From a virus, in the IMG/VR virus record IMGVR_UViG_3300034093_002579, positions 1 to 64,000 of that record: DNA of 64,000 bases; one strand, 5' to 3'. Made by a program: the position numbers and the translations under genes. The notes beneath the pieces were generated by a model. That model was not told where the DNA came from. It saw only the letters and a program-made list of their open reading frames with translations, and did no database searches. Shown here one piece after another: positions 849 to 57,719 of this stretch; position 1 is the stretch's first letter, and the number at the start of each line of letters is the position of its first letter.

Positions 849-871
849 TTAATAAAAAAGTATTACCTTTG
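842..871 (+). promoter_or_regulatory. Bacteroidota-type promoter, leaderless spacing
   Basis: TTG at 842-844, a 19-base spacer, then TACCTTTG at 864-871. This matches the TTTG-N19/20-TAnnTTTG form used by the primary sigma factor of Bacteroidota. Only four bases separate the -7 box from the ATG at 876, so the mRNA is predicted to be leaderless or nearly so. Confidence 0.8.
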
Positions 872-1994: not shown

Positions 1995-2003
1995 TATATT
2001 TAT
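1995..2003 (+). promoter_or_regulatory. Late-type promoter motif TATATTTAT
   Basis: TATATTTATTA lies 18 bases before the ATG at 2022, right after the rnlA terminator. It is one copy of the motif found before most virion genes of this window. Confidence 0.6.
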
Positions 2004-2643: not shown

Positions 2644-2652
2644 TATATTTAT
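2644..2652 (+). promoter_or_regulatory. Late-type promoter motif TATATTTAT
   Basis: TATATTTATTA ends only four bases before the ATG at 2657, implying a leaderless or very short-leader transcript if it acts as a promoter. Confidence 0.6.
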
Positions 2653-5940: not shown

Positions 5941-5947
5941 TAATGAG

Positions 5948-7786: not shown

Positions 7787-7800
7787 TTTACTTATCTTTG
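7769..7800 (+). promoter_or_regulatory. Bacteroidota-type promoter, leaderless spacing
   Basis: TTTG at 7769-7772, a 20-base spacer and TATCTTTG at 7793-7800, then four bases to the ATG at 7805. It lies inside the end of the preceding gene. Confidence 0.78.
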
Positions 7801-11402: not shown

Positions 11403-11411
11403 ACTATTTAT
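11403..11411 (+). promoter_or_regulatory. Late-type promoter motif ACTATTTAT
   Basis: ACTATTTATTAGTA ends five bases before ATG 11417. Confidence 0.5.
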
Positions 11412-12754: not shown

Positions 12755-12763
12755 TATATTTAT
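12755..12763 (+). promoter_or_regulatory. Late-type promoter motif TATATTTAT
   Basis: TATATTTATATATAAAA, 32 bases before ATG 12796; the leader between them is almost pure A. Confidence 0.6.
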
Positions 12764-18571: not shown

Positions 18572-18578
18572 TATTTAT
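18570..18578 (+). promoter_or_regulatory. Late-type promoter motif AATATTTAT
   Basis: AATATTTATTAATAAAA, 14 bases before the small ORF at 18593 and overlapping the terL stop. Confidence 0.6.
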
Positions 18579-18592
18579 TAATAAAATATCAC

Positions 18593-18748
18593 ATGGGACT
18601 AACTTCTAGAAAAAAATCGGGGAACAAACTTAATGGTAGTAAATTAAACGTACCTGGTCAGGGTATTAGTAATGTTAGACCTGGTGGTGATAATAAAATA
18701 AACCAACAAAAGGGTGACCCTAATGGAAAGAAAGGTAAACAAAATTAA
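18593..18748 (+). CDS. Small basic protein, 51 aa
   Basis: Begins MGLTSRKKSGNKLNG and ends GDPNGKKGKQN. Gly, Asn and Lys rich, with no hydrophobic core, hence probably disordered. Support comes from an ATG with a late-type motif just upstream, uninterrupted codons with the local codon usage, and its place between terL and portal. It may be a small head or DNA-binding protein; this is inference. Confidence 0.5.
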   Translation: MGLTSRKKSGNKLNGSKLNVPGQGISNVRPGGDNKINQQKGDPNGKKGKQN

Positions 18749-20630: not shown

Positions 20631-20637
20631 TATTTAT
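20629..20637 (+). promoter_or_regulatory. Late-type promoter motif GATATTTAT
   Basis: GATATTTATAAATAAA overlaps the portal stop and lies 13 bases before ATG 20651. Confidence 0.62.
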
Positions 20638-20650
20638 AAATAAAAAAGAG

Positions 20651-21370
20651 ATGACAAATTTTGGAATAATTAAATCGAAGATAGAAGATGTGTTATTAGA
20701 ATCATATAAAAACAACACATTTAAACAAGAATTCAAAAACTTTAAAAAGTTAGTTTTAGAAAATAAAAAAATATGCAAACTTTTTTATTTATATGATGAT
20801 TTATCTTCTAATAAAGGATTATCGGAATCTATCGTTAATGAATATGTGAATGAATGTATAACCATTTATGAAAATACCATTAATAAAATACAAGAGTCGG
20901 ATATTACACCATTAAAGTCTTGGATTAAAAATTCTAAGGTTGACAATCAGTATAATAATATTGATAATTTATTCTCGAGAGATGTCCTAACAATCGAATC
21001 AAGAATAACTAGTAAAAAATACATTTCAGAATCTCTTAAGAAATTACCTATCAAGAAAGCAGATACTGTTCAAATATCGCTAACTTCTATGGTTAATGTT
21101 GCAAATAAAACAATCACAAATTTTATTGATTCATTAACTGAGTCAGATAAAAAAGAATTAACAAAACTTTTATCTGAAGATGACGTTACTTTAAACCAAA
21201 AATTTGATGATGTTAAAAAAAGTGTTGTAACTAAATTAACTGAAATGAAAAATAATAATGAAGATAACTCAACTCAAACAAGAATTGATGAAACTCTTGA
21301 TAAAGTAATTTCAGAAAAATACGACAAGTTAACTTATTTCAAACTTAAAAGTTTGAATGAGAATCTTTAA
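20651..21370 (+). CDS. Helical protein between portal and protease, 239 aa
   Basis: Not recognised by sequence. Predicted almost all helix, rich in Lys, Asn, Ser and Glu. The N-terminus MTNFGIIKSKIEDVLLESYK has an LLE-S that fits the T4 prohead-protease cleavage rule (L/I/V-x-E before a small residue). In T4 the genes between portal and protease encode prohead core proteins 67 and 68; position and composition suggest an analogous internal core protein. Its stop overlaps the stop of the convergent bS21 gene by four bases. Confidence 0.55.
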   Translation: MTNFGIIKSKIEDVLLESYKNNTFKQEFKNFKKLVLENKKICKLFYLYDDLSSNKGLSESIVNEYVNECITIYENTINKIQESDITPLKSWIKNSKVDNQYNNIDNLFSRDVLTIESRITSKKYISESLKKLPIKKADTVQISLTSMVNVANKTITNFIDSLTESDKKELTKLLSEDDVTLNQKFDDVKKSVVTKLTEMKNNNEDNSTQTRIDETLDKVISEKYDKLTYFKLKSLNENL

Positions 21371-21648: not shown

Positions 21649-22119
21649 ATGAAAAAGGGTAAAACCTCACACATTCACGGATTCAACACTGCCAAGGTAG
21701 TATATGGAACAGTTGATTCGATGAATTTAAAGTCACTCTATCTTAACATCCAAACATGGGTAGAACCAACTACAGAGTGCGAAAATTGGACAAGGACAGT
21801 TCTCAATATGAGCAGAGCCATAAAACATTCGGTCTACGAATCCTTAGATAAAGAGTTATTTGATGATAAATTTATAGTAGATTTAGATTTAAGGTCCAGC
21901 GGATTAAATCAAGGTAAAAAATCTTTTATGAACTTAGAGATTAATTTCTTTTTAAATCATGAAGGACATGACTTTAAATCAAAAGAAATTAAAGATTCAC
22001 TTAAAGATATTACTAATAGAATTTTTTACGAAAACTTTATCGGTAACGATTACTTCAACTTTTATCTAACTAAAAAAATCAAAACAAACGATGATACGCT
22101 ACAATTAGAGAATGTTTAA
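21649..22119 (+). CDS. Hypothetical protein upstream of protease, 156 aa
   Basis: Not recognised. Begins MKKGKTSHIHGFNTAKVVYG; contains WVEPTTECENWTRTVLNMSRAIK and a beta-rich centre (FIVDLDLRSSGLNQGKKSFMNLEINFFL). An ATG ten bases upstream opens only a 7-codon reading frame, so 21649 is the start. It looks globular, unlike the neighbouring core proteins. Its end overlaps a possible early start of the protease gene. Confidence 0.6.
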   Translation: MKKGKTSHIHGFNTAKVVYGTVDSMNLKSLYLNIQTWVEPTTECENWTRTVLNMSRAIKHSVYESLDKELFDDKFIVDLDLRSSGLNQGKKSFMNLEINFFLNHEGHDFKSKEIKDSLKDITNRIFYENFIGNDYFNFYLTKKIKTNDDTLQLENV

Positions 22120-22126
22120 TATTTAT
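22118..22126 (+). promoter_or_regulatory. Late-type promoter motif AATATTTAT
   Basis: AATATTTATAATAAAA, overlapping the end of the previous gene and 15 bases before ATG 22142. Its presence favours 22142 over the in-frame ATG 22112 as the protease start. Confidence 0.55.
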
Positions 22127-22141
22127 AATAAAACATTTGAG

Positions 22142-22870
22142 ATGAATTTAAGAATTTTACAACCAACTGAAATAGGTAAAGGTATATTAATAGAATACGA
22201 TGCGGGTTACGTATCACCAACAGATACACATAATGCTAAGGTTATTAAAGAATCTAAAGGTAATATGTTAGACCACTCTAAACCATTTGAATTTTATGCG
22301 GTATTACAGAAATATAATACCCCAAACAGAAATGGTAGAATATACCCTGAACGTATTTTAAAAAGAGAATCAGAAAACTATAAAAAAATGATAGAAAAGG
22401 GCACCGCTCTTTCAGAGTTAAATCACCCTGAATCGTCATTAATTGATTTAGATAGAGTTTCTCATGCAATAACTGAAATATGGTGGGAAGGTCCTGTACT
22501 AATGGGTAAGATACAATTACTTACATCACCAGGATTCCACGAAAGAGGTATTGTATCAACTAAAGGAGATTTAGCCGCTAATTACCTAAGACAAGGAGTT
22601 ACGTTAGGAATCTCTTCAAGAGGAGTTGGTTCCCTTAAAAAAGTTGGTGAACAGAATGAGGTCCAAGAAGATTTTGAATTAATCTGTTTTGACTTAGTAT
22701 CCTCACCATCAACACCAGGAGCGTATTTATTCCAAAATCCTGAAGATAGATTTAACTTTGAGGAGAACTTGGAAGAGGAGAAAAAAATGAAAGTCGAAAG
22801 ACAAGTTGGGGAAAGTGGAAATAAATCACTTGACTTAATGAAAAAATTGAACGATTATTTAGGATATTAA
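22142..22870 (+). CDS. Prohead maturation protease (gp21-like)
   Basis: Serine protease that cleaves scaffold and capsid proteins after L/I/V-x-E during head maturation. 242 aa from ATG 22142 (MNLRILQPTEIGKG). Catalytic histidine in SELNHPES (about 95) and serine in LGISSRGVGS (about 158-159), followed by the conserved FDLVSSPSTPGA. The C-terminal 35 residues are charged and may be self-cleaved. The neighbours portal, scaffold and capsid give the T4 gene order 20-21-22-23. Confidence 0.9.
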   Translation: MNLRILQPTEIGKGILIEYDAGYVSPTDTHNAKVIKESKGNMLDHSKPFEFYAVLQKYNTPNRNGRIYPERILKRESENYKKMIEKGTALSELNHPESSLIDLDRVSHAITEIWWEGPVLMGKIQLLTSPGFHERGIVSTKGDLAANYLRQGVTLGISSRGVGSLKKVGEQNEVQEDFELICFDLVSSPSTPGAYLFQNPEDRFNFEENLEEEKKMKVERQVGESGNKSLDLMKKLNDYLGY

Positions 22871-23228: not shown

Positions 23229-23237
23229 GATATTTAT
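23229..23237 (+). promoter_or_regulatory. Late-type promoter motif GATATTTAT (proximal)
   Basis: GATATTTATATAG, 22 bases before ATG 23260. Two tandem motifs fit the high demand for scaffold and capsid. Confidence 0.6.
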
Positions 23238-23259: not shown

Positions 23260-24759
23260 ATGGCGAAAGAAAAATCTTTAGTGGAAGAAGCAATCATCCA
23301 AATGAAAAATTTGGAAGAAGCGGTTGCGGAAAATGCAAAAGGAATACTTGCTTCAACTATGAAGGAAGAAATCAAAGAACTAGTAAAAGAATCTCTAACT
23401 GAACAAGAAGACGAGATTGAAACGGATGTTGAAATGGACGAGCCTGAAATGGAAGACGATATGTCTGACGACGAAGGAATGGAAATGGATACTGATAATT
23501 TAGATATGGATATGGATGATGAAGATTCTATGGAGGATGACTTTATGGATGACGATGAAACTATTGACCTTACCGACGTTGACGACGAAGATGAAATCTT
23601 ACGTGTATTTAGTTTAATGGGACCTGAAGATAATATCGTGGTTACCAAAGATAATTCAGGTAATATCAATCTTAAAGATTCTGAAAAAGAATATATGATT
23701 GTTGGTGAAGGTGAAGAATTTATGGATGATTCTGAAGAAATGTTTGAAATGGATGATATGTCAGATTTTGGTATGGAAGACGATGAAGACGAAGACATCA
23801 ATAGCATCATTGATAGAGTATTTAAAAAAGATAACGACGAATTAGAAGAAATGGATTTTGAAAAAGATGAATTAGAGTTCGGAGAAGAAGAAGGAATGGA
23901 CAGTGAAGAAATTGTTTATGAAATTGAATTCAACGAAGAAGAAGGTGAAGAAGATATGGGTCTATCTGAAGAAGATGAAGTAGAAGAAGAAATGTACGAA
24001 TCTTACGAAGAAGAAGACGAGGATATGGAAGAAGAACCTGTTATGGAATCTAAAAAGATGTCAATCAAACCTAAGGGTGTTGGCATGGGAAATCCAAATA
24101 AGAAAAAAGTATACTCAAACAAACCTAACCAAGAAGGTGGTTTCAAAACTGTGAAAAAAACAGTTAATAAAACTATGGGTACTGGTAAAGCGAAATTTGA
24201 ATACAAAGACGGTGAAAATCTTGACGGTGATATGAAAACTGTTAAAAAGGTTGAAACCAAAGAAGCATCAAGAACTTTAGGAAACGGTTCTAACTTTAGA
24301 AAGGGTGGTTTATCAAAACCAAGAGCTCACTCTAAATTTAATACCGCAATCCAAAAAGAGAGTGTTGATAACAAAGAATTACAAGTTCTTAGAGAAAAAA
24401 ATGAAGAGTACAGAAAAGCACTTAACGTTTTCAGAAATAAATTAAACGAAGTTGCAGTGTTTAATTCAAACTTAGCTTATGCTACACGTTTGTTTACAGA
24501 ACATTCGACATCAAAACAAGAGAAGATTAATATCTTAAGACGTTTTGATAGTGTTGAAACTATTAAAGAATCTAAAAACTTGTATAAGACATTAAAAGAT
24601 GACCTTTCGGCTACGACAAGTCAACCAATGAATGAATCAATGGAAAGAACCATTCAAAGTTCTCCATCAACAGGTTCTTCGGCTAACTTGATTGAGTCTA
24701 AAACATACGAAAATCCTCAGTTCTTAAGAATGAAAGATTTAATGTCAAAATTAAAATAA
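23260..24759 (+). CDS. Prohead scaffold/core protein (gp22-like by position)
   Basis: 499 aa, extremely acidic in residues 45-260 (runs such as DEPEMEDDMSDDEGMEM and EEDEDMEEEPVMES). The N-terminal helix is MAKEKSLVEEAIIQMKNLEEAV. A basic Gly/Lys-rich centre (270-370) and a C-terminal helical region (ELQVLREKNEEYRKALNVFRNKLNEV) that looks like a coiled coil follow. Located between the gp21-like protease and the capsid gene, exactly where T4 places scaffold gene 22. Expected to form the prohead core and be cut by the protease. Homology to gp22 is not visible at sequence level; the call rests on order and composition. Confidence 0.72.
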   Translation: MAKEKSLVEEAIIQMKNLEEAVAENAKGILASTMKEEIKELVKESLTEQEDEIETDVEMDEPEMEDDMSDDEGMEMDTDNLDMDMDDEDSMEDDFMDDDETIDLTDVDDEDEILRVFSLMGPEDNIVVTKDNSGNINLKDSEKEYMIVGEGEEFMDDSEEMFEMDDMSDFGMEDDEDEDINSIIDRVFKKDNDELEEMDFEKDELEFGEEEGMDSEEIVYEIEFNEEEGEEDMGLSEEDEVEEEMYESYEEEDEDMEEEPVMESKKMSIKPKGVGMGNPNKKKVYSNKPNQEGGFKTVKKTVNKTMGTGKAKFEYKDGENLDGDMKTVKKVETKEASRTLGNGSNFRKGGLSKPRAHSKFNTAIQKESVDNKELQVLREKNEEYRKALNVFRNKLNEVAVFNSNLAYATRLFTEHSTSKQEKINILRRFDSVETIKESKNLYKTLKDDLSATTSQPMNESMERTIQSSPSTGSSANLIESKTYENPQFLRMKDLMSKLK

Positions 24760-24791: not shown

Positions 24792-26663
24792 ATGGGAGCA
24801 TTATTAGAATCAGGTCTTGTTGGTAACATCGGGTTAAAACACCTTAAAGTTATCAAAGAAGATACTATCAACAAATGGGATAAATTAGGATTCCTAGAAG
24901 GCCTTAAAGGTCACCTAAAAGAAAACGTAGCTCAGTTATATGAGAACCAAGCGTCTTTCTTAATTAACGAAGCAACGTCTGACGGGTCTTCAGGTTCATT
25001 TGAAACTGTTGTATTCCCTATCGTAAGACGTGTATTCTCTAAATTATTAGCGAATGACATCGTATCAGTACAAGCGATGAATTTACCAATCGGTAAATTA
25101 TTCTTCTTTGTACCTAAAATTCAAGGGTATTCAGGTGGTACTAACACTCCATGGAGTGATGTATCTTCAGGAGACCACTACGCACCACTAGGAGCACCAA
25201 ACGGACCAACATCTCAAAATGCAGGTTACACAGGAACTGGAGCGGTTGCTAAAAACCTTTATGACTTATTCTACGAAGGAACTGAACCAGGTTTAGACCC
25301 AGCAGGTTTATTCGATTATTCAAAAGGTCGTTGGTCAGCAATCACTGCAAGTACGTTGATTCAAGCATGGTCAAATGGGTCATTAGTTGATGCAACTATT
25401 AATGATGGTGCACCAGCAAATGGTATTGAAATTGCTTCAGGTAACACAAGAAAAGTTATTGTTAAAATGTGTGGTTTCGCTGATACAGGAGCTGGTAAAT
25501 TAATCGGACCTGACGGTAATGAAATGGATACAGAATCTTTCTTATCTGATTTAGTTATCTTTACAGGTGCTGGTTTAACAGTTGCTGAAGGTTCTCCATG
25601 TACAGTTTCAACAGGAGCATTATTGTTCAGAGTTGTTACTCAACAATATGGTAAAGGAATCGTTTCTTACGGTAATACAGTTCAAACTAATTGGCCAGCG
25701 GCATCAGGTAATAACCCTGCAGGTAACGGTGGTTCGTTTAAAACCGTATGTGACGCTAACGGATGTATCTACTTAGAAGTTGATTTATCTTGTCCAGTAT
25801 GTGCTGATTGTGATTCTACATCTTTAGATGGTTACACAGGTACTACTATTACTGAAGCGTCTTCAGGAACATCATTCTACGCAGCGTTCAGACGTTACGA
25901 ACAATTAGAATTTGAAGATAAAATCGGTGAGGTTTCTTTCGACTTAGATTCAGTTACTGTATCTGTTACAGAAAGAAAATTAAGAGCACAATGGTCTCCT
26001 GAGTTAGCTCAAGACGTTGCTGCATTCCACAACATCGATGCTGAAGCTGAATTAACGGCTTTATTATCTGAACAAGTTGCTGCTGAAATCGACCGTGAAA
26101 TCTTAAGAGATTTACGTAAAGGTGCGGCATGGAACTTACGTTGGGATTACAACGGATGGAGAAGAATTTCTCAAACTACATCTTATACTCAAAAAGATTG
26201 GAATCAAACATTAATTACTGCAATTAACCAATTGTCAGCACAAATCCACAAATCTACATTAAGAGGTGGAGCTAACTGGATTGTAGTTTCTTCTGAGATT
26301 TCGGCTATTTTTGATGATTTAGAGTACTTCCACGTATCTAACGCGTCTCCAGAGCAAGACCAATACAACATGGGTATTGAAAGAGTTGGAACATTAGCAG
26401 GTCGTTACCAAGTTTACCGTGACCCTTACTTCCCAGCTAACACAGTGTTAGTAGGACATAAAGGAACGTCATTGTTAGACACAGGTTACATCTACGCACC
26501 GTATGTACCATTACAATTAACACCTACAATGTATAACCCATTCAACTTCACACCTATTAAAGGTATTATGACACGTTACGCTAAGAAAATGGTTAACAAC
26601 CGTTTCTACGGACGTATCACAGTTGATGGAGTTAGAACATTCGACTTAAGAGAATTGAGATAA
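24792..26663 (+). CDS. Major capsid protein (gp23-like)
   Basis: HK97-fold capsid subunit, 623 aa against 521 for T4 gp23. The N-terminus carries a pro-segment ending SFLINE (Glu60) before ATSDG, a correct gp21-type cleavage site. FPIVRRVFSKLLANDIVSVQAMNLPIGKLFF matches the gp23 E-loop/N-arm region. SVTERKLRAQWSPELAQD and RGGANWIVVSSEI match the P- and A-domain segments. An extra Gly/Cys-containing region (about 110-370, with CPVCADCDS) enlarges the protein and may be an outward insertion domain. The SD-less A-rich leader (AAAACCAAAAAAATG) follows the scaffold gene by 32 bases. Confidence 0.93.
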   Translation: MGALLESGLVGNIGLKHLKVIKEDTINKWDKLGFLEGLKGHLKENVAQLYENQASFLINEATSDGSSGSFETVVFPIVRRVFSKLLANDIVSVQAMNLPIGKLFFFVPKIQGYSGGTNTPWSDVSSGDHYAPLGAPNGPTSQNAGYTGTGAVAKNLYDLFYEGTEPGLDPAGLFDYSKGRWSAITASTLIQAWSNGSLVDATINDGAPANGIEIASGNTRKVIVKMCGFADTGAGKLIGPDGNEMDTESFLSDLVIFTGAGLTVAEGSPCTVSTGALLFRVVTQQYGKGIVSYGNTVQTNWPAASGNNPAGNGGSFKTVCDANGCIYLEVDLSCPVCADCDSTSLDGYTGTTITEASSGTSFYAAFRRYEQLEFEDKIGEVSFDLDSVTVSVTERKLRAQWSPELAQDVAAFHNIDAEAELTALLSEQVAAEIDREILRDLRKGAAWNLRWDYNGWRRISQTTSYTQKDWNQTLITAINQLSAQIHKSTLRGGANWIVVSSEISAIFDDLEYFHVSNASPEQDQYNMGIERVGTLAGRYQVYRDPYFPANTVLVGHKGTSLLDTGYIYAPYVPLQLTPTMYNPFNFTPIKGIMTRYAKKMVNNRFYGRITVDGVRTFDLRELR

Positions 26664-26720: not shown

Positions 26721-26729
26721 AGTATTTAT
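26721..26729 (+). promoter_or_regulatory. Late-type promoter motif AGTATTTAT
   Basis: AGTATTTATATTAT ends five bases before ATG 26735. Confidence 0.55.
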
Positions 26730-26734
26730 ATTAT

Positions 26735-27148
26735 ATGAGCGAATTACGTAGATTAATCAAAGAACATTTATTATTAGAAAAGAAAATTGGGCATATTATG
26801 GCCAAAATAGAAATTGCCTTTGGTTTTGAGATTGATAGAACTACCCACGCATATGAAAGAAAAAACAGAACTGATATTCCTGATTATAATGATAGAGAAA
26901 TATCTAACGGTGAATTAAAATATATAATTGAGAGTTGTAGACGAGAAATTGCGGAAGGAATTACCACAGGAGAGATTAAAGATGATGTAGCATTTGTTAT
27001 TAAATCAAAAGAAAAAGAAATCGCTATGGTCATAGTACCAAAACATGGTGGTGGCTCCTATTGGAAATTACTTATAATTACCGTTTTTAGAGAATCGTAT
27101 GATTTATCTTTTAGAGTTGGTAAAGACCAATTTGTTATTTGGATTTAA
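26735..27148 (+). CDS. Hypothetical protein, 137 aa
   Basis: Not recognised. Start ATG 26735 (MSELRRLIKEHLLLEKKIG). The amphipathic N-terminal helix ending LLLE resembles a capsid-targeting segment. The rest has EIDRTTHAYERKNR, a helical segment, and a beta-rich end (SYWKLLIITVFRESYDLSFRVG) that recalls small RNase-toxin-like folds, though no active site can be argued. Its stop codon overlaps the terminator T-run of the antisense small RNA. Confidence 0.6.
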   Translation: MSELRRLIKEHLLLEKKIGHIMAKIEIAFGFEIDRTTHAYERKNRTDIPDYNDREISNGELKYIIESCRREIAEGITTGEIKDDVAFVIKSKEKEIAMVIVPKHGGGSYWKLLIITVFRESYDLSFRVGKDQFVIWI

Positions 27149-27312: not shown

Positions 27313-27321
27313 GATATTTAT
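27313..27321 (+). promoter_or_regulatory. Late-type promoter motif GATATTTAT
   Basis: GATATTTATATATTAAA, 19 bases before ATG 27341. Confidence 0.6.
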
Positions 27322-27340: not shown

Positions 27341-28216
27341 ATGAAAAAATTATATTTTTTAAATGAAGAAGAATCTAAAAGAATTCTAAATCTTCATAAA
27401 GAAGCAACTAAAAAACAATATCTTAAAGAAGACGACACTATGATGTCATCTGAAAATGAGTTAGCCGAAGATGGTGTAATGGCGTCAATGGCAACAGGTG
27501 CTGCAATTGGTGGAGCCGTTGGTTTAGTTCCAGGAGCAATTATCGGTGGAGCGATTGGATTAATTAACGGATTAATTAATGGTGGGAATTATTCTTACAA
27601 AGGTGCCGAAAAAATTTTACAAGCTTGTGGAAATTTAAAAGAAGTTGGTAAATCAACACTGAGTAGAGCCACATTAAATGGTATTGCCGATGGTATTAAC
27701 GCAGCGGTTGATGGTATGGGTACTGATGAGGATGCAATTAAAAGTAATCTACAAAAAATCACAACAATTCCTGATTTATGTGCGATGTCAAACATATATA
27801 ATACAAGACATGGTGAAAGTTTATTCGCAGCAATTGATGGGGACATCGATTCTGAGGGTGAATGGAAACAATATGTTTTTTTACCATTATTAGACGCATA
27901 TGAAAACAGTGTTGACCTTGGTAAAAAATTGGCGGCACAAAAGGAATCAAGTGTCGTAAAGGGATTTGAAAAATTTCCTTGTATTCCAAGTAACCCAAAA
28001 GCGAAATCATCAAAATTGAGTGACGGTAGTATTGCTTACATAATTGATGGGGTGGTTTATTACGGGAATGGTAGAAAAAAATTGGTCGACGGAACTATGG
28101 CCAGTTATTCTTGTGGTAAAGAATCGTCTAATACTAAGACAAATACTAAGACAAAAGTTAAACAACCAACAATACCTTCAGATACAGATTTAGATATGGT
28201 ATTGACTAAACTTTAA
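27341..28216 (+). CDS. Glycine-zipper protein with annexin-like repeat
   Basis: Likely virion or membrane-active protein, 291 aa. Residues 1-30 (MKKLYFLNEEESKRILNLHKE) match the N-terminus of the next gene product. Residues about 48-80 form a Gly-zipper membrane segment (GAAIGGAVGLVPGAIIGGAIG). Residues about 118-185 contain VDGMGTDEDAIKSNLQKI and later YNTRHGESLFAAIDGDID, similar to an annexin repeat with its GxGTDE calcium loop. A short disordered NTKTNTKTK tail follows. A Gly-zipper plus annexin-like repeat suggests membrane interaction during DNA entry; that is inference. The late-type motif upstream fits a virion protein. Confidence 0.6.
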   Translation: MKKLYFLNEEESKRILNLHKEATKKQYLKEDDTMMSSENELAEDGVMASMATGAAIGGAVGLVPGAIIGGAIGLINGLINGGNYSYKGAEKILQACGNLKEVGKSTLSRATLNGIADGINAAVDGMGTDEDAIKSNLQKITTIPDLCAMSNIYNTRHGESLFAAIDGDIDSEGEWKQYVFLPLLDAYENSVDLGKKLAAQKESSVVKGFEKFPCIPSNPKAKSSKLSDGSIAYIIDGVVYYGNGRKKLVDGTMASYSCGKESSNTKTNTKTKVKQPTIPSDTDLDMVLTKL

Positions 28217-29333: not shown

Positions 29334-29342
29334 TATATTTAT
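29334..29342 (+). promoter_or_regulatory. Late-type promoter motif TATATTTAT
   Basis: TATATTTATAAG, 18 bases before ATG 29361. Confidence 0.6.
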
Positions 29343-29360
29343 AAGTATACTAAAATATCT

Positions 29361-30806
29361 ATGCTAAATCAATTAATAAAGAAAGTATTACTCGAGGCAA
29401 CTTCTGACAGTAATGGGGGTAGAGGGTCCTATGTTTCTCCTTTACAACCTGGTGTTAGAGAATTTAGTAAAGAGTCGTTACAACCATTTATAACACCCGT
29501 ATCAAAGTATGTCAATACTGAGTTGGGATACGACAGTTATGACGGTAAAATGAGTACCCCTAAAAAGAAAATTAAAAAGATGGAAAATAAAGCAAAAAAC
29601 ATCTCCAATTATATTAAGAATCACCCTACTTTAACATCTGGTGATGATGAAGGTAATAATATAAACCAAACACCTGGAGGTAAAAAAAGTATTGTACCAA
29701 TCACAACTCTAAAAGAGTGGATTGAAATAAAAAAAGACACTGTAGTTGTTGGTGAAAAGAAAGTAATTAAACTTAACGAAGGTGATATTATTCGAATGGT
29801 AAAAAGAATTTTATCTGAACAAGATGATGAAAAAACTTATTATAAGTTAGGTGCAACAGGTTTAGGATTTAAAATTATTGATGGAAAATTATACACGGTA
29901 TTATTTAATAAATCAACAGGTGAAGTAAAACCAGACTACGCATTAAACGGGGAGTTATACGACTTCAAAGTAGATGTTAAAACAGGTGAAGTACTTGACG
30001 AGGACTATAGAACAAATATCGAATTCACAGAGTTTTATTGGAATGATATAGTTCGTTCTGATATACAACCTGGACAATATAATAATGTAAGATACAAATT
30101 TATTGCCGTGGCACCTGAAGGTGTTCCTAATAAGGCCTCAATCGGTAAACCAGTTGTTTACACGGGTAATATTGTTGCAGAGGACATAAGTGTCTTAAAA
30201 TCAATCGGAATGACCGAATCTAAAGATACTACCATTTCACCTATGATGTATTATAAGAAGGGTGGAAAAGGGTATTATGTGATGTTATATCCTGGCGCAA
30301 GACCTGGTACTGAAGTTACAATTGGTGGGTCATCAAAAAAAACAACACCAACACCGACTAATATTAGTTTGGATATTACAGAACCGTTCGTATTTGACAA
30401 AACAGAATTAAAACCTGAAGCTCAAGATAAGATTGATAAATTTATTTCTAATTTAAATGGTTACTTGAAAACATATCCTAAGTATGGTAAATTCTTATTA
30501 CAAAACGTCCCATTAATTATCGGATATTCATCAAGAGATAAAGACCCTAACGATAGAATAATTGGTAAATTACCTGCATGTCAATCATCTAAAACTATTG
30601 GTGAGTATAATCAATGTTTATCACAACAAAGAGCAAATACAATCGCTAATATGATTAAAGAGAAAACGGGTATTGTTATGACCCCTATTGGTAAAGGTGA
30701 AACGACTGAGTTCGGGCCAGGATGGACAAAAGAAAAATCAACTACTACTGACCAAACACAACCTAATAGAAGGTTTGTAATTAAAATTAAAGATTATACA
30801 GAATAA
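29361..30806 (+). CDS. OmpA-like domain virion protein
   Basis: 481 aa. The N-terminus MLNQLIKKVLLEATSDS looks like a capsid-targeting peptide (LLE followed by A). The middle (about 140-310) is a beta-rich domain of unknown type. The C-terminal 160 residues are an OmpA/MotB-type peptidoglycan-binding domain: ITEPFVFDKTELKPEAQDKI, then IGYSSRDKDPNDR, SQQRANTIANMI and PNRRFVIKIK. It carries no signal peptide, so it is more likely packed in the virion than exported as a host outer-membrane protein. Binding peptidoglycan at infection is a reasonable role. Confidence 0.75.
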   Translation: MLNQLIKKVLLEATSDSNGGRGSYVSPLQPGVREFSKESLQPFITPVSKYVNTELGYDSYDGKMSTPKKKIKKMENKAKNISNYIKNHPTLTSGDDEGNNINQTPGGKKSIVPITTLKEWIEIKKDTVVVGEKKVIKLNEGDIIRMVKRILSEQDDEKTYYKLGATGLGFKIIDGKLYTVLFNKSTGEVKPDYALNGELYDFKVDVKTGEVLDEDYRTNIEFTEFYWNDIVRSDIQPGQYNNVRYKFIAVAPEGVPNKASIGKPVVYTGNIVAEDISVLKSIGMTESKDTTISPMMYYKKGGKGYYVMLYPGARPGTEVTIGGSSKKTTPTPTNISLDITEPFVFDKTELKPEAQDKIDKFISNLNGYLKTYPKYGKFLLQNVPLIIGYSSRDKDPNDRIIGKLPACQSSKTIGEYNQCLSQQRANTIANMIKEKTGIVMTPIGKGETTEFGPGWTKEKSTTTDQTQPNRRFVIKIKDYTE

Positions 30807-30838: not shown

Positions 30839-31234
30839 TTAGAACACTTTGATGTTGATAATTTTCTTATCAGTGTAGTCATCAAAGCAGTAGATTAAAA
30901 CATACTTACCTAACTTAGGATGAGTATTAGTATGTGGAATACTATCTAATGTGACAACCCCTGTTTTCTTATCTTGGATATATACGTATGAATCGTATGT
31001 GAATTCATTATGTAACGTTTGATTAAGTTTGAAGTCCTTGAAAAATCTAACTGAATCAAGATTAGTGATATCAATCTTGTATGTGTTAAGTAACAACTTA
31101 ACGGATACGGAATCTTTAACCCATAAATCACTTAACTCATAGAAGTTCCCCGCCTTCTTAATAGAGGATTCAACCTGAGCGAAACCAACACATGTGGTTA
31201 AGACTAAAACGATGAGTGTGATTAATTTTTTCAT
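30839..31234 (-). CDS. Exported hypothetical protein, 131 aa
   Basis: The N-terminus MKKLITLIVLVLTTCVGFAQ is a Sec signal peptide with likely cleavage after GFA-Q. The mature part is beta-rich (YVYIQDKKTGVVTLDSIPH) and unrecognised. The Cys in the hydrophobic core is too far inside to be a convincing lipobox. Exported phage proteins may protect the host envelope or block superinfection; nothing here selects a role. A TAnnTTTG box stands four bases before the ATG. Confidence 0.65.
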   Translation of the reverse strand: MKKLITLIVLVLTTCVGFAQVESSIKKAGNFYELSDLWVKDSVSVKLLLNTYKIDITNLDSVRFFKDFKLNQTLHNEFTYDSYVYIQDKKTGVVTLDSIPHTNTHPKLGKYVLIYCFDDYTDKKIINIKVF

Positions 31235-31238
31235 ATTA

Positions 31239-31246
31239 CAAAGTTA
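31239..31246 (-). promoter_or_regulatory. Host-like -7 box, leaderless spacing
   Basis: TAACTTTG on the minus strand, then TAAT and ATG of the exported-protein gene. The four-base gap equals that at 871/876 and 7800/7805; the -33 element is poor. Confidence 0.5.
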
Positions 31247-32476: not shown

Positions 32477-33952
32477 TTAATCTAAATACTTCATATTAAC
32501 GATTTGAAATTTAACTTGTCGTTTGTATGTATTTATCTCTCCACTACTATCCACCTTAATATCTATATAATACTCGTTAGGTATTTTATCCCTAGTGTCA
32601 AACATAAAATAATATTCGTTTGGCGTCCTGTTGATTTTGGTCCAACCTTGAACCTCAACCTCAGTCTGGCCTTCTCTAACATATACTCTGTAGTGAGCGT
32701 CAACATTTTGTAAAAGTTTTTGAGTTGTGTAAGCTTGTTTAATGACAACACCAACTTTTCTAATATCAGTATTGTATATTTTTTCATCTTGTTTAATACC
32801 ATAAAAGTCAAACCCATATAATTTAGGGTCGACTGAATTAGTACCAATCTGAATTGAATTTTTTAATGGTTGTATTGTAAACTCATTAAACGATTGGGGT
32901 AATGGGAAACCATTGTAATTTAAGTTGTACCATTTATCAGTAAACATACATGGTGTTTTATAACCAATTATTGGTGGTATAACAATTTCATAAACACCTT
33001 TAGTTCTTTGACAAGCGGTTAACCCTGTTAATCCAGGAATGTCATTTCCCGATGAATCCATAATAGTAACACTTGGATTATTGTCTAAATTGATTGGGTT
33101 ACCGTTATCAAACAAGTACAAATAAAGTTTGTTTGTTCTACCTAAAGAAAATAAGTTTCTATCATCTTCAATAAGGTCATTATAGTTTGTTTCTAAAAAT
33201 GGTTCGTAAAATGTTTGAGTATGTCTTGTAAAAAATTGAGTTTCATAGGTATCAGTAAGACCTGATAAGTTTTCGACCTGAGGTTTGTAAGCAATTCCCC
33301 ATCCTGTGACATTAGTTAATGAACCATCAATAATTGAATTAATTTCACTAGTCATGTCAAAACTAACGTTCTCATTACCAAATTCAAAATGTTGTGTGTC
33401 AACGATAGTTAATGAGCTAAAAGGAACAACCCCACTGTTTAAGTTATTGTAGACACCAGGCTCAGTCCAAACACCAATTGTCGTTGTTTGAAACCAATTC
33501 GAGGGTCTATCAGAAAAAGATTTGTCCGTATCACTATATTCATAAACTAAATCAGCAAAATCATAACCAACACCTTCATCCCAAATCTGTGGGTTTAGTG
33601 GGTTGTTATTAATGTATGGGATTCTGAATAAAATTAAATCAAATGACGTGGCTCTTTTTCTACCTTGAGATGTTGAGGTGTTTAATAACTCAATATCAAA
33701 GGTTGAGGTATTCACCATTCTTAAAGTGTGAACAATTGTGTCGTTACAAGTTGTAGAAATTGTACCGTCATTTATCTTCTGAAATAGTAATGAAAGGTCT
33801 AAATCGAATATGAATCTACTATACCCACTAGGATATTGAGACACTGCGGTAGAACCATAAAACAATTCCGTAACTGGGTTTCTACCAGTATTGGTGAAAC
33901 TGTTGGATATGATAGTATTGTTCTTACTAAAGTAGGAGTTATTAATTGACAT
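32477..33952 (-). CDS. Large beta-rich tail/virion protein, 491 aa
   Basis: Not assigned to a family. The N-terminal 230 residues read as a beta-sandwich (YSRFIFDLDLSLLFQKI, TGWGIAYKP). The middle has EDDRNLFSLGRTNKLYLYLFDNG, like an Ig/FN3 start. The C-terminal part (YRVYVREGQTEVEVQGWTKI, PNEYYIDIKVDSSGEI) forms another beta domain. No enzymatic motif. Neighbours are baseplate-like proteins and its own late-type motif lies 15 bases upstream, so a tail or baseplate role is likely. Confidence 0.6.
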   Translation of the reverse strand: MSINNSYFSKNNTIISNSFTNTGRNPVTELFYGSTAVSQYPSGYSRFIFDLDLSLLFQKINDGTISTTCNDTIVHTLRMVNTSTFDIELLNTSTSQGRKRATSFDLILFRIPYINNNPLNPQIWDEGVGYDFADLVYEYSDTDKSFSDRPSNWFQTTTIGVWTEPGVYNNLNSGVVPFSSLTIVDTQHFEFGNENVSFDMTSEINSIIDGSLTNVTGWGIAYKPQVENLSGLTDTYETQFFTRHTQTFYEPFLETNYNDLIEDDRNLFSLGRTNKLYLYLFDNGNPINLDNNPSVTIMDSSGNDIPGLTGLTACQRTKGVYEIVIPPIIGYKTPCMFTDKWYNLNYNGFPLPQSFNEFTIQPLKNSIQIGTNSVDPKLYGFDFYGIKQDEKIYNTDIRKVGVVIKQAYTTQKLLQNVDAHYRVYVREGQTEVEVQGWTKINRTPNEYYFMFDTRDKIPNEYYIDIKVDSSGEINTYKRQVKFQIVNMKYLD

Positions 33953-33967
33953 TTAAGTGTTTTACTT

Positions 33968-33976
33968 ATAAATATC
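33968..33976 (-). promoter_or_regulatory. Late-type promoter motif GATATTTAT
   Basis: GATATTTATAAGTAAAA on the minus strand, 15 bases before ATG at 33952. Confidence 0.6.
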
Positions 33977-37682: not shown

Positions 37683-38060
37683 TTAGTTTTTCATTTTGTA
37701 AGACCCGTCAGGTTTAGACGCGTCTTTTAGTATTAAATTTTCTAATAAATCATCATCCACACCTAAATCAGTAATTGAGAAACTACCACTTCCTGCGGTA
37801 TTAGATTTTTCCCACATAGTAGATTGCAGTTTAGATAATGTTAATTTCTTTTCAACACAATCGTTAATGATTTTTTGTTGCTTTTCAATAACAGGACCTA
37901 TTAGAGTCATATCTTCAGGTTCTTTCATCATTGTCAACATTTTATTTTGTATTCTAATCGCAGTGTTTCTTTGTTCAACAAGTTCATTATAGATTTCTTG
38001 CATCAAAGATAACATCGACTCTTTAGTTAAATTAATTTCTTTTTTTTGTGGTCTTCCCAT
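37683..38060 (-). CDS. Hypothetical protein, 125 aa
   Basis: Not recognised. Basic N-terminus MGRPQKKEINLTKESML, helices rich in Met/Gln (RIQNKMLTMMKEPEDM), and an acidic C-terminal VDDDLLENLILKD. It leads a tail-gene operon with a late-type motif four bases before its ATG. Possibly a tail assembly protein. Confidence 0.6.
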   Translation of the reverse strand: MGRPQKKEINLTKESMLSLMQEIYNELVEQRNTAIRIQNKMLTMMKEPEDMTLIGPVIEKQQKIINDCVEKKLTLSKLQSTMWEKSNTAGSGSFSITDLGVDDDLLENLILKDASKPDGSYKMKN

Positions 38061-38064
38061 TACA

Positions 38065-38073
38065 ATAAATATT
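38065..38073 (-). promoter_or_regulatory. Late-type promoter motif AATATTTAT
   Basis: AATATTTATTGTA ends four bases before the ATG at 38060 on the minus strand. Confidence 0.6.
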
Positions 38074-38085
38074 AACTATAAAATT

Positions 38086-38835
38086 TTATTTAACCATATT
38101 CTCCACTAAAGTATAATACATTGTTTTGTATTTCTTCATTGACCCCCTAATTTCTTTGGTTGACAAATTAGTCATTTCCCTTAATGAGAGTAGTATAATA
38201 TTTTTATTAAATTTATTATTATCGTTACCGATAAAAATAGATTCATAATTCTCAAAAAGGTCATGTAACGCATGACCTAGTTTGATTTCGTTTTCCGATA
38301 AACTCTCATTTTCTAGCAAATTATCTAACTCAAGTAAAAAGTTTTTAATTACTTTTTCTGAATCAATACCTTCTTTTTCTATACTGTAAGAAAAGTTAGG
38401 GTTATTTTCTATACTCGTTGAGATATCTTCATATGATATTTTTCGGTTAGTTTCTTTTTGGTCCTTAATAATTTGACCCATAAGATAATTCTTACAGATT
38501 GTACCAAAATATGAATAAGCTTTTTTCTCTCTAGAGGGTTTAAACTTTTCAATTTTTGTCATTAAGAATGAGTGAGTGTCTACATGTATCTCCGTAAAGT
38601 CCATGTCTTTTCTATATAATTTGTATCTTCGAATTATCGAAGATATCATCTTATCTAAAGGTTTTTTTAAAAAATCATTATAAATTTTATTTCGTTCTTC
38701 GTAGGAGGTTGATTCTAAAAATCTAACAACGGCCTGCTCTTCGGGAACATCAAAATAATTTAATTGTGTTGGTTTTCTACCTTTCTTTTTTAACTCAACA
38801 TTGGTGTTTCCTGTTAAATTAATAATTTCTGTCAT
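38086..38835 (-). CDS. Late-transcription sigma factor (gp55-like)
   Basis: Probable sigma factor for virion gene transcription, 249 aa (T4 gp55 is 185). The sigma region-2-like core is KPLDKMISSIIRRYKLYRKD followed by DTHSFLMTKIEKFKPSREKKAYSYFGTICKNYLMGQIIKDQKETNR, the layout of gp55 homologues in T4-like phages (AYSYF-x-I then a basic helix). The C-terminal part (LSLREMTNLSTKEIRGSMKKYK) looks like a helix-turn-helix that could act as region 4 or as clamp-binding tail. The recurring RATATTTATWA motif before virion genes is its best candidate target. It overlaps the next gene downstream by one base, in front of glycosyltransferases. Confidence 0.72.
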   Translation of the reverse strand: MTEIINLTGNTNVELKKKGRKPTQLNYFDVPEEQAVVRFLESTSYEERNKIYNDFLKKPLDKMISSIIRRYKLYRKDMDFTEIHVDTHSFLMTKIEKFKPSREKKAYSYFGTICKNYLMGQIIKDQKETNRKISYEDISTSIENNPNFSYSIEKEGIDSEKVIKNFLLELDNLLENESLSENEIKLGHALHDLFENYESIFIGNDNNKFNKNIILLSLREMTNLSTKEIRGSMKKYKTMYYTLVENMVK

Positions 38836-51353: not shown

Positions 51354-51824
51354 TTATATTATTTTTTTAATTAAATCGTTTATTCTAGTTAAATTTTCCA
51401 TGATAGCAGTGTCATATTTATCAACGGTTGATTTGTGACTTTTACTAGGTCTATTAATCGTTGTCATGTCATTCTTCTCATGTGGCTGAATAAATTGATT
51501 AGGTAAAACCTCAGATTTATTCTTTTTAGTATTGTGTACATTATCTCTCATTGAAGTTAAGGTGTTGTGAACCCAATTTTTAACATAATGACCCCCATTT
51601 AAAATATAAGATAAATCATTTTCGTCACCCTCAAACTTATCAAACCAATTTTTCATTCGTTTTAATTGTTGATATGTAACTTCACGACTATCTCTTAGTT
51701 CTTTGTTTCTCTTATAACCCTCAACACTTTCGTCAGCACCTCCCGCGGCATCATGACACTGTTGTAAATAACTTACAACCTCCTCAGGTAGAGAAAATTT
51801 ATTTCCATATAAATCTTTATTCAT
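51354..51824 (-). CDS. Hypothetical protein, 156 aa
   Basis: Not recognised. Helical with LPEEVVSYLQQCHDAAGG and YQQLKRMKNWFDKFEG, then a basic, disordered part (HNTKKNKSEVLPNQF) and a terminal helix NLTRINDLIKKII. Helix-rich, DNA- or protein-binding in look. It overlaps the 51817 gene by eight bases. Confidence 0.58.
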   Translation of the reverse strand: MNKDLYGNKFSLPEEVVSYLQQCHDAAGGADESVEGYKRNKELRDSREVTYQQLKRMKNWFDKFEGDENDLSYILNGGHYVKNWVHNTLTSMRDNVHNTKKNKSEVLPNQFIQPHEKNDMTTINRPSKSHKSTVDKYDTAIMENLTRINDLIKKII

Positions 51825-52653
51825 TTGATTTTAATATGTTAATTAATTTAGAAATACTGATACCTTCTTTATCTGCTAATTTTTTAATTGATTGTAAATT
51901 TTTAACTAATATCTTACTAACGCTTTCATCACGTTTTACAACGTCTGAACTATCTTTAGATTTCTTAGTTAAGATGTCCTCAACCATTTTAATCATTTTT
52001 TCTTTTTGTTGTTCTTCAATACTATCTTTTTCAGAAAGTCTTTGTTTTAATTTACCACCAACTTTCTTAGCTTTGGGTAATTTACCAAATTCTTTTGCTC
52101 TTTGTACGGGATTCTCAACACCCATCTTTTTTAATATATTTATAGTTTCTTTAAAATCTTTTCCTTCAGTCTCAACATATCCAAAGGCTTCTGAATAGTC
52201 AACTTCTGACACAATATTTTCTTTTTCTTCTTCACTCTCACCATAATAAACACGGTAACCTCTTGTTACAGGGTCATTTGTTGTTCTAGCCATAACAACA
52301 GTTTGGTCCATTGTTTTTCTTGGGGAAAGGGTTAAATTTATCAAAGGAATTCTTGAACTTAACATAGTTCCGTCAGAATCAACTAACTCACCAATCTCAC
52401 CCGAAGATTTTTTTACACCTTTTAATTTATCCTCAATATCAATTGTTGTTTGTTTTTCTTTTGATTTTAAAATATTATTTACAACATCTTTAACTTTTTT
52501 CGAATCTTTTTTATCGAAGTCCATTTTTTTGTCTTTTTTTCTAGATTCGGTTAAAGTGTCAGCAATAGAATAGTATAAGGAGATTTGGTCTCCTCTATCT
52601 TTTAAAAAGAAGTAATAATTATTACTGTAGTATTCTTTGTTAAAATTTATCAT
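51817..52653 (-). CDS. Lys-rich hypothetical protein, 278 aa
   Basis: Not recognised. MINFNKEYYSNNYYFFLKDRG, then strongly basic linkers (RKKDKKMDFDKKDSKKVKD), a central stretch with LINLTLSPRKTMDQTVVMAR and GYRVYYGESEEEKENI, and a Lys/Glu helical C-terminus. A divergent partner of the 52704 adhesin gene across a 50-base gap. High Lys suggests nucleic-acid or scaffold binding. Confidence 0.55.
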   Translation of the reverse strand: MINFNKEYYSNNYYFFLKDRGDQISLYYSIADTLTESRKKDKKMDFDKKDSKKVKDVVNNILKSKEKQTTIDIEDKLKGVKKSSGEIGELVDSDGTMLSSRIPLINLTLSPRKTMDQTVVMARTTNDPVTRGYRVYYGESEEEKENIVSEVDYSEAFGYVETEGKDFKETINILKKMGVENPVQRAKEFGKLPKAKKVGGKLKQRLSEKDSIEEQQKEKMIKMVEDILTKKSKDSSDVVKRDESVSKILVKNLQSIKKLADKEGISISKLINILKSNE

Positions 52654-52684
52654 AACACATTTTCCAATAAATACTTCGATTTAG

Positions 52685-52693
52685 AGTATTTAT
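52685..52693 (+). promoter_or_regulatory. Late-type promoter motif AGTATTTAT
   Basis: AGTATTTATCATAAAA ends ten bases before ATG 52704. Confidence 0.6.
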
Positions 52694-52703
52694 CATAAAA
52701 AAG

Positions 52704-55700
52704 ATGGCAAGTCAAAATATAAATCAATACGTCCGCTCAAATTGGTCTCTAAAACTTAATTTAGATTCCAATGATATGTCTTTGACCTCAGATGAACAAG
52801 ACTACAATCAAGAGGTTGTTTTCTCCCCATATTTGATTGCACAAACATACGGAAACCGACTTCCTGTTTATTTTGACATTAACAATCCTTTAAGTGTTCA
52901 AAACCAAACACTTTCATATAAACAATACAATAATAATAATATTTTTGTATCTCAAAATTATTACAATCCAAATAATGATGATTTGACTTGTTACTCATCA
53001 TCAACATCATGTGATATTGGGTTAACAGGTGTTGACAACGGATTAGTCAACCAAATGACGGGTGAAACGATAACATTCACTAAAGGTTTATATTCTGATT
53101 ATTTAAAATTCAATAGAATGTATTACGACCGAAGATTAAAGTTACATCAAGTTACAGGTCACACCAATTTACCTAACGTAAGATTTTCGGGGTTTAATAA
53201 AACCGTTTTATACGAAGTGGTTAGTAAATCAAGCCCTTTTGAGGGTAGATACCACGAATTATATGGTGGTTTTTATCAAGGGTTTTATAAATTATTTGGT
53301 TTTGATTATGAGATTTTTCCTGAAAGAATGAATAAAGGATGGTCCGTTGAAATGGTTTTGAAACCAAGACTTATCAATGAGTATTCTCCATTACCTAATG
53401 AAACAACTCTTAATGAAATTTATCCAAACAATAAGAATACTTTTTTTTATTTTGGAACTAGAGCTGAAAATAAATTTTATCACCACGCCAGTGGTAGTCC
53501 ATTGTGTTTTTCGGGGTACAATCGAGTAACATCAGGTCTAACTCAACTACAAACATGTGCTTGTTGTAATAGAACAATTACGGATAGTAGATGTGTATTT
53601 GTTTATCCGCCAAGGTCAGTAAATAATATTCATGACCCTCACGTTAATTATGGGTGTAGTAGTTGTAATGGAGACCCAGAAAAGAAAATTACTTGTGGTT
53701 GTGATTGTAATTTAGACCCTTGTGAAACTTGTGGGTGGGAATGTCAAACACACATATGCGACACTATAATTATCCCAACACCAACACCAACACCCCCTCC
53801 AACGCCAATACCTGATTGTGAACTACCACCTGTTTGCACACCATCATGTGATGTTTGTACAACAACCACAACTTGTTATAACTGTAATACAGGATTTACA
53901 TCAATCGAAAATACTTGTGAAACAAATCCAATATATGATTCTATGTCAAACGCATTATCTTTTAGATTATGTGGTGACCCAAAAAATCCTGGTATCGGAG
54001 TTAGAATGTTAAAATTCACAGGAGACTGTGTTACTACGGGTTCTTGTGAAACAAGTGGAATTACGTACACTACAGGACACACTATTGTTGATTATTGTAC
54101 ACCCCCAATTTACCCTACATGTTTATTAGAGAATCCCGCGTGGTTAGAGGAGGAACATTGGTTTCAAGTAGATGCGGTATGGGAAAGATATACATGGTTA
54201 GATACGTGTGATTTATGGTATCGAGGAGGACTTGGTGATATAACTGAAAAACTTTATTTAGAATCATTAGCAAATAATGCAACATCATTAATTACAATAC
54301 CATACACTCAAATTGGTGGTAAAACATCAGAACAAATTGAGTTGGTTAGATTAAATGAAAAATGGTTAATTGATAAATTATATCGAAATGGGAGACTTAA
54401 GATTTACGTTAATGGTAAATTATTTCATACAATTGAAAATTTTGAGGAGATTATCCCAAGAGGGTTAGATACCGACAAAGAAAAACAAGTTGGTGTTCCA
54501 TTTAATATATCGTGGGGTGGAGGTACCCAAGGACTTAGAGAAAATTTAACTTTTTCATCTATGACGCAACCTTACGGACCTTATATTCAAGACCCTGAAA
54601 ATTTCCCAATTAATGATTTATCGGGGACAACATTTAATGGGTTAAAAACTAATATATTAATTGAACAGAATTTTGCGGGAACTTTTGATGGTGCCATTTC
54701 ACAATTTAGAATGTATGTTACCCCATTATCGGCTCCTGAGGTAAAACACAACTTTAATTTATTAAAAAATACTTTCAGAATGTTTAACCCTGATTGTCCT
54801 GACTGCTCGACATCGGTTTGTTTACCTAACGACTTTACATACCAAATATCTGGAGAAACAACAACAACCACCACCACAAATTTAACCACAACGACAACAA
54901 CAACCTCAAATTTAACGACAACAACTACAACCTCAAATTTAACAACAACAACTACAACCTCAAATTTAACAACAACTACAACCACATATTCACCGACCCC
55001 AACACCAACTAACACCCCAACACCAACACCGACTAACACTTCAACACCAACTTCAACACCAACTTCAACACCAACACCTACACCTACACCTACACCTACG
55101 GTTTATACACCTGGAGAGTGTATTCGTTTTATTGATGATTTAACGGATTGTACTGGTACAATTGCATTACCATCAAATATAAGTCCTTCAACTCAGATTA
55201 ATGGTAAATCATCATATTATTTCACTTATTACTCTATCGCCCCACCCACCGTATTAATGAGGATTTCTTGGGATAATATAAATAATTATTGGATTTTAGA
55301 GGATATGTCCACATATTATCCATTACCTAACCCACTCGCATATCTTCCTATAAATAGTCTTACACCAATTGGGGGAATGAATAATTGGGTACCACTACCA
55401 AATATTATAGGTAGTTGTCTATATGGAGGCGGTGCAGGAATACAGCATATAAATTTTCTGACGTATACGGTTATTGGAGATTGTTCATCTTGTTGCAAAA
55501 CATTCCAATTATATAGTGGATTTGGACCTGGAACTGGTTCAACGTATCAAATTTTATATTGTGATAATACTGTCGAAGTTATTGATGTACCATTATATGT
55601 TACCATAACTTATAAATGTGCCATCAATGTAATTAAACTTAATGGTGGAGGAACTGTAACAGTTGTTGATATCAATTGTGATTGTGACCCAAATAATTTA

Positions 55701-55709
55701 AGTATATGA
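52704..55709 (+). CDS. Large adhesin: ConA-like domain, Cys cluster, Thr stalk
   Basis: Probable tail-tip or fibre protein, 1001 aa, no signal peptide. Residues 1-280 are beta-rich and aromatic. Residues about 285-460 form a Cys cluster ([30 protein letters not shown]) with Pro-Thr run [11 protein letters not shown]. About 480-700 includes LamG/ConA-like strands ([36 protein letters not shown]). About 713-800 is a mucin-like stalk of Thr runs with SNL interruptions, then Thr-Pro repeats. The last 200 residues are a second folded, Cys-containing part ([12 protein letters not shown]). Late-type motif upstream. Thr/Pro stalks are likely O-glycosylation targets for the transferases at 38-50 kb; that link is inference. 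Confidence 0.72.
54857..55100 (+). repeat. Thr and Thr-Pro coding repeat tract
   Basis: ACAACAACC-type triplets coding Thr runs broken by AATTTAAC (Asn-Leu), then ACACCAACACC coding Thr-Pro repeats. Confidence 0.85.
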
Positions 55710-56234: not shown

Positions 56235-56243
56235 GATATTTAT
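56235..56243 (+). promoter_or_regulatory. Late-type promoter motif GATATTTAT
   Basis: GATATTTATTAAATAAA, 17 bases before ATG 56261. Confidence 0.6.
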
Positions 56244-57372: not shown

Positions 57373-57381
57373 ACTATTTAT
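57373..57381 (+). promoter_or_regulatory. Late-type promoter motif ACTATTTAT
   Basis: ACTATTTATTCAAT ends five bases before ATG 57387; the same spacing as at 11417. Confidence 0.52.
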
Positions 57382-57386
57382 TCAAT

Positions 57387-57689
57387 ATGACACAAATTGA
57401 GATTACTGGAGTTTCTGGAGTTACATTACCGTATGATTTATATGCGTGTGATGTGTATGGGAATCAATGTGTTTTAATTTCAACTATTAACACTCAAGTA
57501 CCTCCATCAATATCTATTGTACTACCAACCACATTCAATTCAGCCCCCGCCGTTGGAATAAAAATCATAGACTCTTTGGGGTGCGAAAAGTTCGGAATAA
57601 TTTATTGTGACGAGAAAGGTAAGATTTATCAAGACGGAGAAATCTTTATTTTCATGGATGCAAATATTTATATATTCGAAGACCAATAA
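57387..57689 (+). CDS. Hypothetical protein, 100 aa
   Basis: Not recognised. Beta-rich (MTQIEITGVSGVTLPYDLYA; ISIVLPTTFNSAPAVGIKI) with several Cys and a C-terminal YQDGEIFIFMDANIYIF. Compact, no signal. Located between receptor-binding and fibre genes; likely a small tail-tip part. Confidence 0.6.
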   Translation: MTQIEITGVSGVTLPYDLYACDVYGNQCVLISTINTQVPPSISIVLPTTFNSAPAVGIKIIDSLGCEKFGIIYCDEKGKIYQDGEIFIFMDANIYIFEDQ

Positions 57690-57710: not shown

Positions 57711-57719
57711 CATATTTAT
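57711..57719 (+). promoter_or_regulatory. Late-type promoter motif CATATTTAT
   Basis: CATATTTATACATATAG, 17 bases before ATG 57737 of the fibre gene. Confidence 0.58.

Follow-up and report, generated by a model that had tools for sequence, protein, structure and literature searches.

The heptamer TATTTAT, which recurs in front of genes in the 64-kb stretch of DNA analyzed here (the window, taken out of the 88,869-base virus record IMGVR_UViG_3300034093_002579), is likely to act as the -7/-10 element in the late promoters of T4-like phages that form a large lineage, with hosts mostly among the Bacteroidota. It would correspond to the T4 late word with AA changed to TT at positions -10/-9, a gp55-like sigma factor encoded in the window would read it, and transcription would start 5 nt 3' of it; the other genes would be served by the Bacteroidota primary-sigma promoter TTG-N19/20-TAnnTTTG. 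The basis of this explanation, which we consider likely as a whole, is computational and consists of the enrichment, orientation and footprint of the motif, its gene-class bias, the lack of a -33 box, the spacing shared with the host box and the homology of the sigma factor; from these we infer the start points, the late timing and the host phylum. For these phages, an abundant T4-like lineage, the outcome is a predicted late-promoter code.

The genes of the window that serve as landmarks, including the putative sigma gene and its neighbor, are the following.

876-1958, plus strand: RNA-ligase/tail-fibre-attachment protein
16802-18571: T4-like terminase
18786-20630: T4-like portal
22112-22870: T4-like prohead protease
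24792-26663: T4-like major capsid protein
37683..38060, minus strand: 125-aa gene, next after the sigma gene, carrying the late motif
38086..38835, minus strand: putative gp55-like late sigma factor of 249 aa, with sigma region 2 at residues ~26-143 and an extra helical C-terminal domain at ~159-248

By capsid and terminase, the nearest cultured phages are Flavobacterium phage immuto (NC_055915) and Microcystis phage Mel-JY01 (PP395634), and the uncultured 484-kb phage LR756508 is also among the closest; relatives in IMG/VR reach 322 kb (G001). Although Mel-JY01 is a Microcystis phage by its record, its capsid, terminase and sigma factor group it with the Flavobacterium phage immuto. Two scans of IMG/VR for relatives of the sigma factor each yielded more than 400 contigs, and no match was obtained when the Mel-JY01 sigma was used as a query against viral contigs. 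The sigma factor is present in only six GenBank phage records, in which the product, where annotated, is named hypothetical.

Upstream regions were counted as gaps of at least 12 nt before genes, which gave 41 regions with a total of 1,980 nt in the 88.9-kb record. They contain TATTTAT 22 times in the sense and 5 times in the antisense orientation, and the coding DNA (82 kb) contains 13 sense and 10 antisense copies. Dinucleotide shuffles of the same upstream regions produced a mean of 2.65 and a maximum of 8 copies, and none of the 300 shuffles reached 22. A preliminary description of this DNA had claimed that copies of the motif stand before genes in gene orientation; both the orientation and the excess over the shuffles bear this out. 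Its example sites are present (2645, 18571, 20630, 23230, 56236 and 57712, as well as 33968 and 38065 on the minus strand), and the site that it placed at 52685 is found as TATTTAT at 52687. From its proposed consensus RATATTTATWA the TATTTAT core was retained, while the full consensus was replaced by (A/C)TATTTAT(A/T), which describes the sites better, the base 5' of the heptamer being mostly A or C; the ACTATTTAT variants fall into this class too. Matches to ATATTTAT number 23 in the window against 11.3 expected from dinucleotide shuffles, and 0 of 100 shuffles reached 23. The TATTTAT sites of the window are located as follows.

1997..2003, plus: 18 nt before gene 2022-2627
2646..2652, plus: 4 nt before gene 2657-3325
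11405..11411, plus: 5 nt before gene 11417-12712 (metallo-endopeptidase/endolysin-like)
12757..12763, plus: 32 nt before gene 12796-14136
18572..18578, plus: 14 nt before small ORF 18593-18748, directly 5' of the portal gene
20631..20637, plus: 13 nt before gene 20651-21370, 3' of the portal gene
23231..23237, plus: 22 nt before gene 23260-24759, itself ahead of the major capsid gene
26723..26729, plus: 5 nt before gene 26735-27148
27315..27321, plus: 19 nt before gene 27341-28216
29336..29342, plus: 18 nt before gene 29361-30806
33968..33974, minus: 15 nt before gene 32477-33952
38065..38071, minus: 4 nt before the ATG of 37683-38060, predicted leaderless
52667..52673, minus: 13 nt before gene 51817-52653
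52687..52693, plus: 10 nt before gene 52704-55709
56237..56243, plus: 17 nt before gene 56261-57295 (structural-protein-like)
57375..57381, plus: 5 nt before gene 57387-57689
57713..57719, plus: 17 nt before the 2,550-aa collagen-like gene (start 57737)

With a single pipeline, TATTTAT ranked first among the upstream 7-mers of the window phage (22 vs 3.9 expected), of G001 (86 vs 18.1) and of immuto (34 vs 4.9), and was strongly enriched upstream in Mel-JY01 (21 vs 4.2); in the T4 control ATAAATA/TATAAATA were among the top words. The heptamer likewise leads the upstream 7-mers of hundreds of IMG/VR contigs. Once the loci are dereplicated, it heads the ranking of clade 1 (60 vs 15.4) as well as that of clade 2 (54 vs 12.1). 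A literature search found no paper on TATTTAT as a late promoter, and none of the papers listed for Flavobacterium phage, sigma factor and late genes was relevant.

The motif also leaves a footprint beside the sigma gene. The 125-aa gene occupies the same position in immuto and Mel-JY01, with weak homology across the clades, and TATTTAT is found in the intergenic sequence between the sigma gene and this neighbor in 34 of 35 distinct sequences from clade 1 and in 61 of 61 from clade 2. In these 95 of 96 sequences it is the single invariant block, around which flanking bases and spacing diverge while the heptamer stays; clade-1 sequences usually have it 4 nt from the ATG of the neighbor, and 9-18 nt separate the two in most clade-2 sequences. 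That TATTTAT is a chance product of AT-rich intergenic DNA, as the composition of the upstream regions (~80% AT) could suggest, has a practically negligible probability: the reading is refuted by the shuffles together with the 22:5 strand asymmetry, and the conservation beside the sigma gene also stands against it.

The motif behaves as a promoter element, as is seen in G001. The expected TTG lies 22-23 nt upstream of 21 of 44 host-type TAnnTTTG boxes in this genome, compared with 4 of 90 TATTTAT elements, and the TATTTAT sites of G001 and clade 1 showed neither a TTG peak nor another strongly conserved block upstream. The genes preceded by the two motifs hardly overlap (85 with the late motif, 42 with the host motif and 4 with both), and those for tail sheath, tail tube, portal, prohead protease and baseplate are on the late-motif side. 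In immuto, TATTTAT occurs in 20 of 35 upstream regions of structural modules versus 13 of the 77 remaining ones (Fisher p 2.7e-5). Non-structural genes carrying the motif, such as those for DnaB helicase in G001 and PhoH in immuto, were counted against the late-promoter reading. The candidate late element differs from the Bacteroidota primary-sigma promoter (TTTG/TAnnTTTG) in its gene set and in lacking the TTG at -33 as well as the final G, but has the same preferred 4-nt spacing to the ATG. Sites ending exactly 4 nt before the ATG form a sharp excess in G001 for TATTTAT (19/91) and TAnnTTTG (10/45) alike, and account for 32 of 148 and 40 of 166 TATTTAT sites in the two clades. The common spacing probably reflects the same start-site geometry of the host polymerase.

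Transcription starts 4-5 nt past the -7 box in F. johnsoniae (PMC6847099), and the promoter box of F. psychrophilum lies at -12 to -5 (PMC9723704). Since a start is predicted 5 nt downstream of the element, an element ending 4 nt before the ATG would give a leaderless mRNA beginning with the A of the ATG. Such mRNAs are predicted for the 4-nt class, i.e., for ~20-25% of the TATTTAT promoters, in hosts with few leaderless messages (5.5% in F. psychrophilum). Three boxes of the other, host-type promoter class were located in the window. As they end exactly 4 nt 5' of the ATG, leaderless non-late mRNAs are predicted as well.

864..871, plus: host-type -7 box TACCTTTG, 4 nt before gene 876-1958
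7793..7800, plus: host-type -7 box TATCTTTG, 4 nt before gene 7805-8635
31239..31246, minus: host-type -7 box TAACTTTG, 4 nt before gene 30839-31234

In immuto, a repeat, TATATTTAGGTA, often extended as TCAATAATTAA, was found mainly at 60-77 kb ahead of 13 mostly small genes; it is likely an early promoter element in its own right.

The fixed 4-nt spacing in ~20-25% of cases would also suit a translation-initiation or mRNA-leader signal, the hosts being without Shine-Dalgarno sequences. We regard this reading as very improbable. The remaining TATTTAT sites lie 9-40 nt from the ATG, the spacing shifts between the clades while the heptamer is constant, and the host and late motifs stand on nearly disjoint gene sets; the signal was rejected because the 4-nt spike is common to the host promoter box and because the largest group of sites in Mel-JY01, whose recorded host is a cyanobacterium, lies 41-70 nt upstream, which argues against a role in translation. 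Reading of TATTTAT by the host primary sigma factor, or by a phage RpoD-like second sigma in the large clade-1 relatives, is unlikely, if less so. A second, SigA-like sigma is encoded in G001 (L119:16026-16889, minus strand, equivalent to G001 96026-96889), in G009 and in several other large clade-1 records, and TATTTAT stands at the same spacing from the ATG as the host box. However, the element lacks a -33 element, departs from the TAnnTTTG consensus and is not one of the six sigma motifs that are described for F. psychrophilum (PMC9723704). Moreover, the motif is common to phages whose recorded hosts are Flavobacterium and a cyanobacterium. Both immuto and Mel-JY01 have the motif, yet the RpoD-like sigma of G001 and G009 was detected in neither, which makes this sigma the less likely reader. 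A multisubunit phage RNA polymerase was rejected as reader because a search for its beta subunit found none.

The gp55-like sigma factor is the probable reader of TATTTAT. Alone, the 249-aa protein gave no strong or useful match to Pfam or, at the default threshold, to PHROGs; it matched the late sigma family PHROG_234 with an E of 0.003 and NCBIfam sigma70-ECF with an E of 4.5e-4, below the model cut-off. Pfam Sigma70_r2 was found in 32 of 64 relatives with sub-threshold scores. The top PDB matches of its AlphaFold model in Foldseek were sigma factors (best E ~0.01, with low whole-chain TM-scores), and among viral models it matched the sigma-like factor of Klebsiella phage KPV15 (target TM 0.64). 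A profile built from the two clades had T4 gp55 as its sole match among 177,635 PDB sequences, at a non-significant E of 0.57, and the sigma-family profile had gene 55 as its sole match in the genomes of T4 (E 0.015) and Va3 (E 0.003). Alignment with hhalign gave an E of 6e-6 against gp55 and 0.6 against the phage RpoD-like sigma, the comparison being of low depth. By these criteria the protein is a sigma factor with T4 gp55 as its nearest known relative, and the PHROG_234, NCBIfam and Foldseek matches confirm 38086-38835 (minus strand), called gp55-like in the preliminary description, as a divergent sigma-70-family gene. Two-domain sigma factors (SigD, SigH, WhiG, ECF) are matched over the whole chain by Foldseek, but the best PDB E is only 0.01 and the C-terminal domain has no sequence match to sigma region 4.

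The predicted pairing of this sigma with a new late word, also proposed earlier, is strengthened by the sole matches to gene 55 and by the covariation of motif and sigma subtype. Phages with an ordinary gp55 (T4, Va3 and S-RIM8) show TATAAAT and no TATTTAT signal, whereas the window phage, G001, immuto and Mel-JY01 show TATTTAT, with TATAAAT not enriched; Moby gave almost no counts in this comparison. LR756508 departs from this pattern: its two-domain gp55-like sigma is of the immuto type (40% identical), yet TATTTAT is not enriched (7 sense and 6 antisense copies). In this phage CTACTTA and ATATTTA are mildly enriched in its place.

In the same orientation, TATTTATA equals TATAAATA with AA replaced by TT at positions 4-5 (-10/-9), while the bases -13 to -11 and -8 to -6 stay the same. 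The suggestion that the sigma reads an inverted element was dropped, since this alignment explains TATTTATA and makes an inversion unnecessary. In the T4 structure, A-12 lies against Y97, A-9 against N13 and H95, and A-8 near T99 of gp55 (PMC7892883). TATTTATA keeps A-12 and A-8 and has T instead of A-9. In the alignment of the sigma family to gp55, Y97 corresponds to the invariant Y109 and the acidic E70 to E82 or D, whereas Y or F takes the place of H95, T99 is mostly replaced by G and N13 is not conserved. These changes would fit a recoded promoter pocket, without proving one. The argument is not decisive, as cyanophage gp55 also has F at the H95 position and the phages that carry it use TATAAAT. 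The two-base change from TATAAATA to TATTTATA may represent a natural experiment in promoter re-coding by sigma region 2.

Both the T4 late promoter and the proposed element are single -10-like elements without a -35/-33 element ahead of structural genes, and the sigma family shares region 2 homology with T4 gp55 (PHROG_234; PDB 7D7C), including pocket residue Y97 as Y109. The families differ in length (226-249 aa compared with 155-196 aa for gp55) and in a ~90-residue helical C-terminal domain in place of the linker and clamp-binding tail of T4 gp55. A T4-like clamp-binding tail was found in 0 of 64 members; since cyanophage gp55 is also without it, the tail does not define the whole gp55 family. 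In G001, G009, immuto, Mel-JY01 and LR756508, searches for gp33 (PF16805), the gp45 clamp (PF02916, PF09116) and the beta clamp gave nothing above the cut-off, although T4 gp33 and gp45 were found as controls. A canonical T4 late system, in which gp55 acts with a diverged gp33 and gp45 clamp and only the promoter word is altered, would agree with the gp55 homology and with the clamp-loader homologues of Mel-JY01 (E 6e-77) and LR756508 (E 1.7e-49), in which a diverged clamp may accordingly exist. Given the results of these searches, the missing tail and the lack of a clamp-loader match in immuto, we consider such a system rather doubtful.

Geiduschek and Kassavetis (2010), reviewing T4 late transcription, asked why no fused late sigma has been met with in nature (PMC2988020). 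We tentatively suggest, as a possibility somewhat short of even, that the sigma family is such a natural single-chain late sigma, in which a gp55-type region 2 would be joined to a region-4/gp33-like flap-binding domain and which would work without a T4-type clamp and on its own word. A region-4-like C-terminal domain is suggested by whole-chain Foldseek only, and sequence comparisons give no support for region 4 or gp33 in this domain. Should the domain be region-4-like, the long-standing question of why the T4 late sigma is split would be answered, with a bearing on how the replication clamp became tied to late transcription.

Further features were observed in the window. A GOLLD RNA (Rfam RF02032, 327 bits; 5007-5414, plus strand) and a tmRNA (RF00023, 66 bits; 5945-6333, minus strand), the latter not reported by ARAGORN, sit in the otherwise gene-poor 3.9-6.4 kb. 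The 2,550-aa collagen-like protein, with Gly-Thr-Ser-Gly-type repeats and preceded by the late motif, is encoded at 57737-64000 and on to 65389, and the opposite strand of this gene is also open over 1,908 codons.
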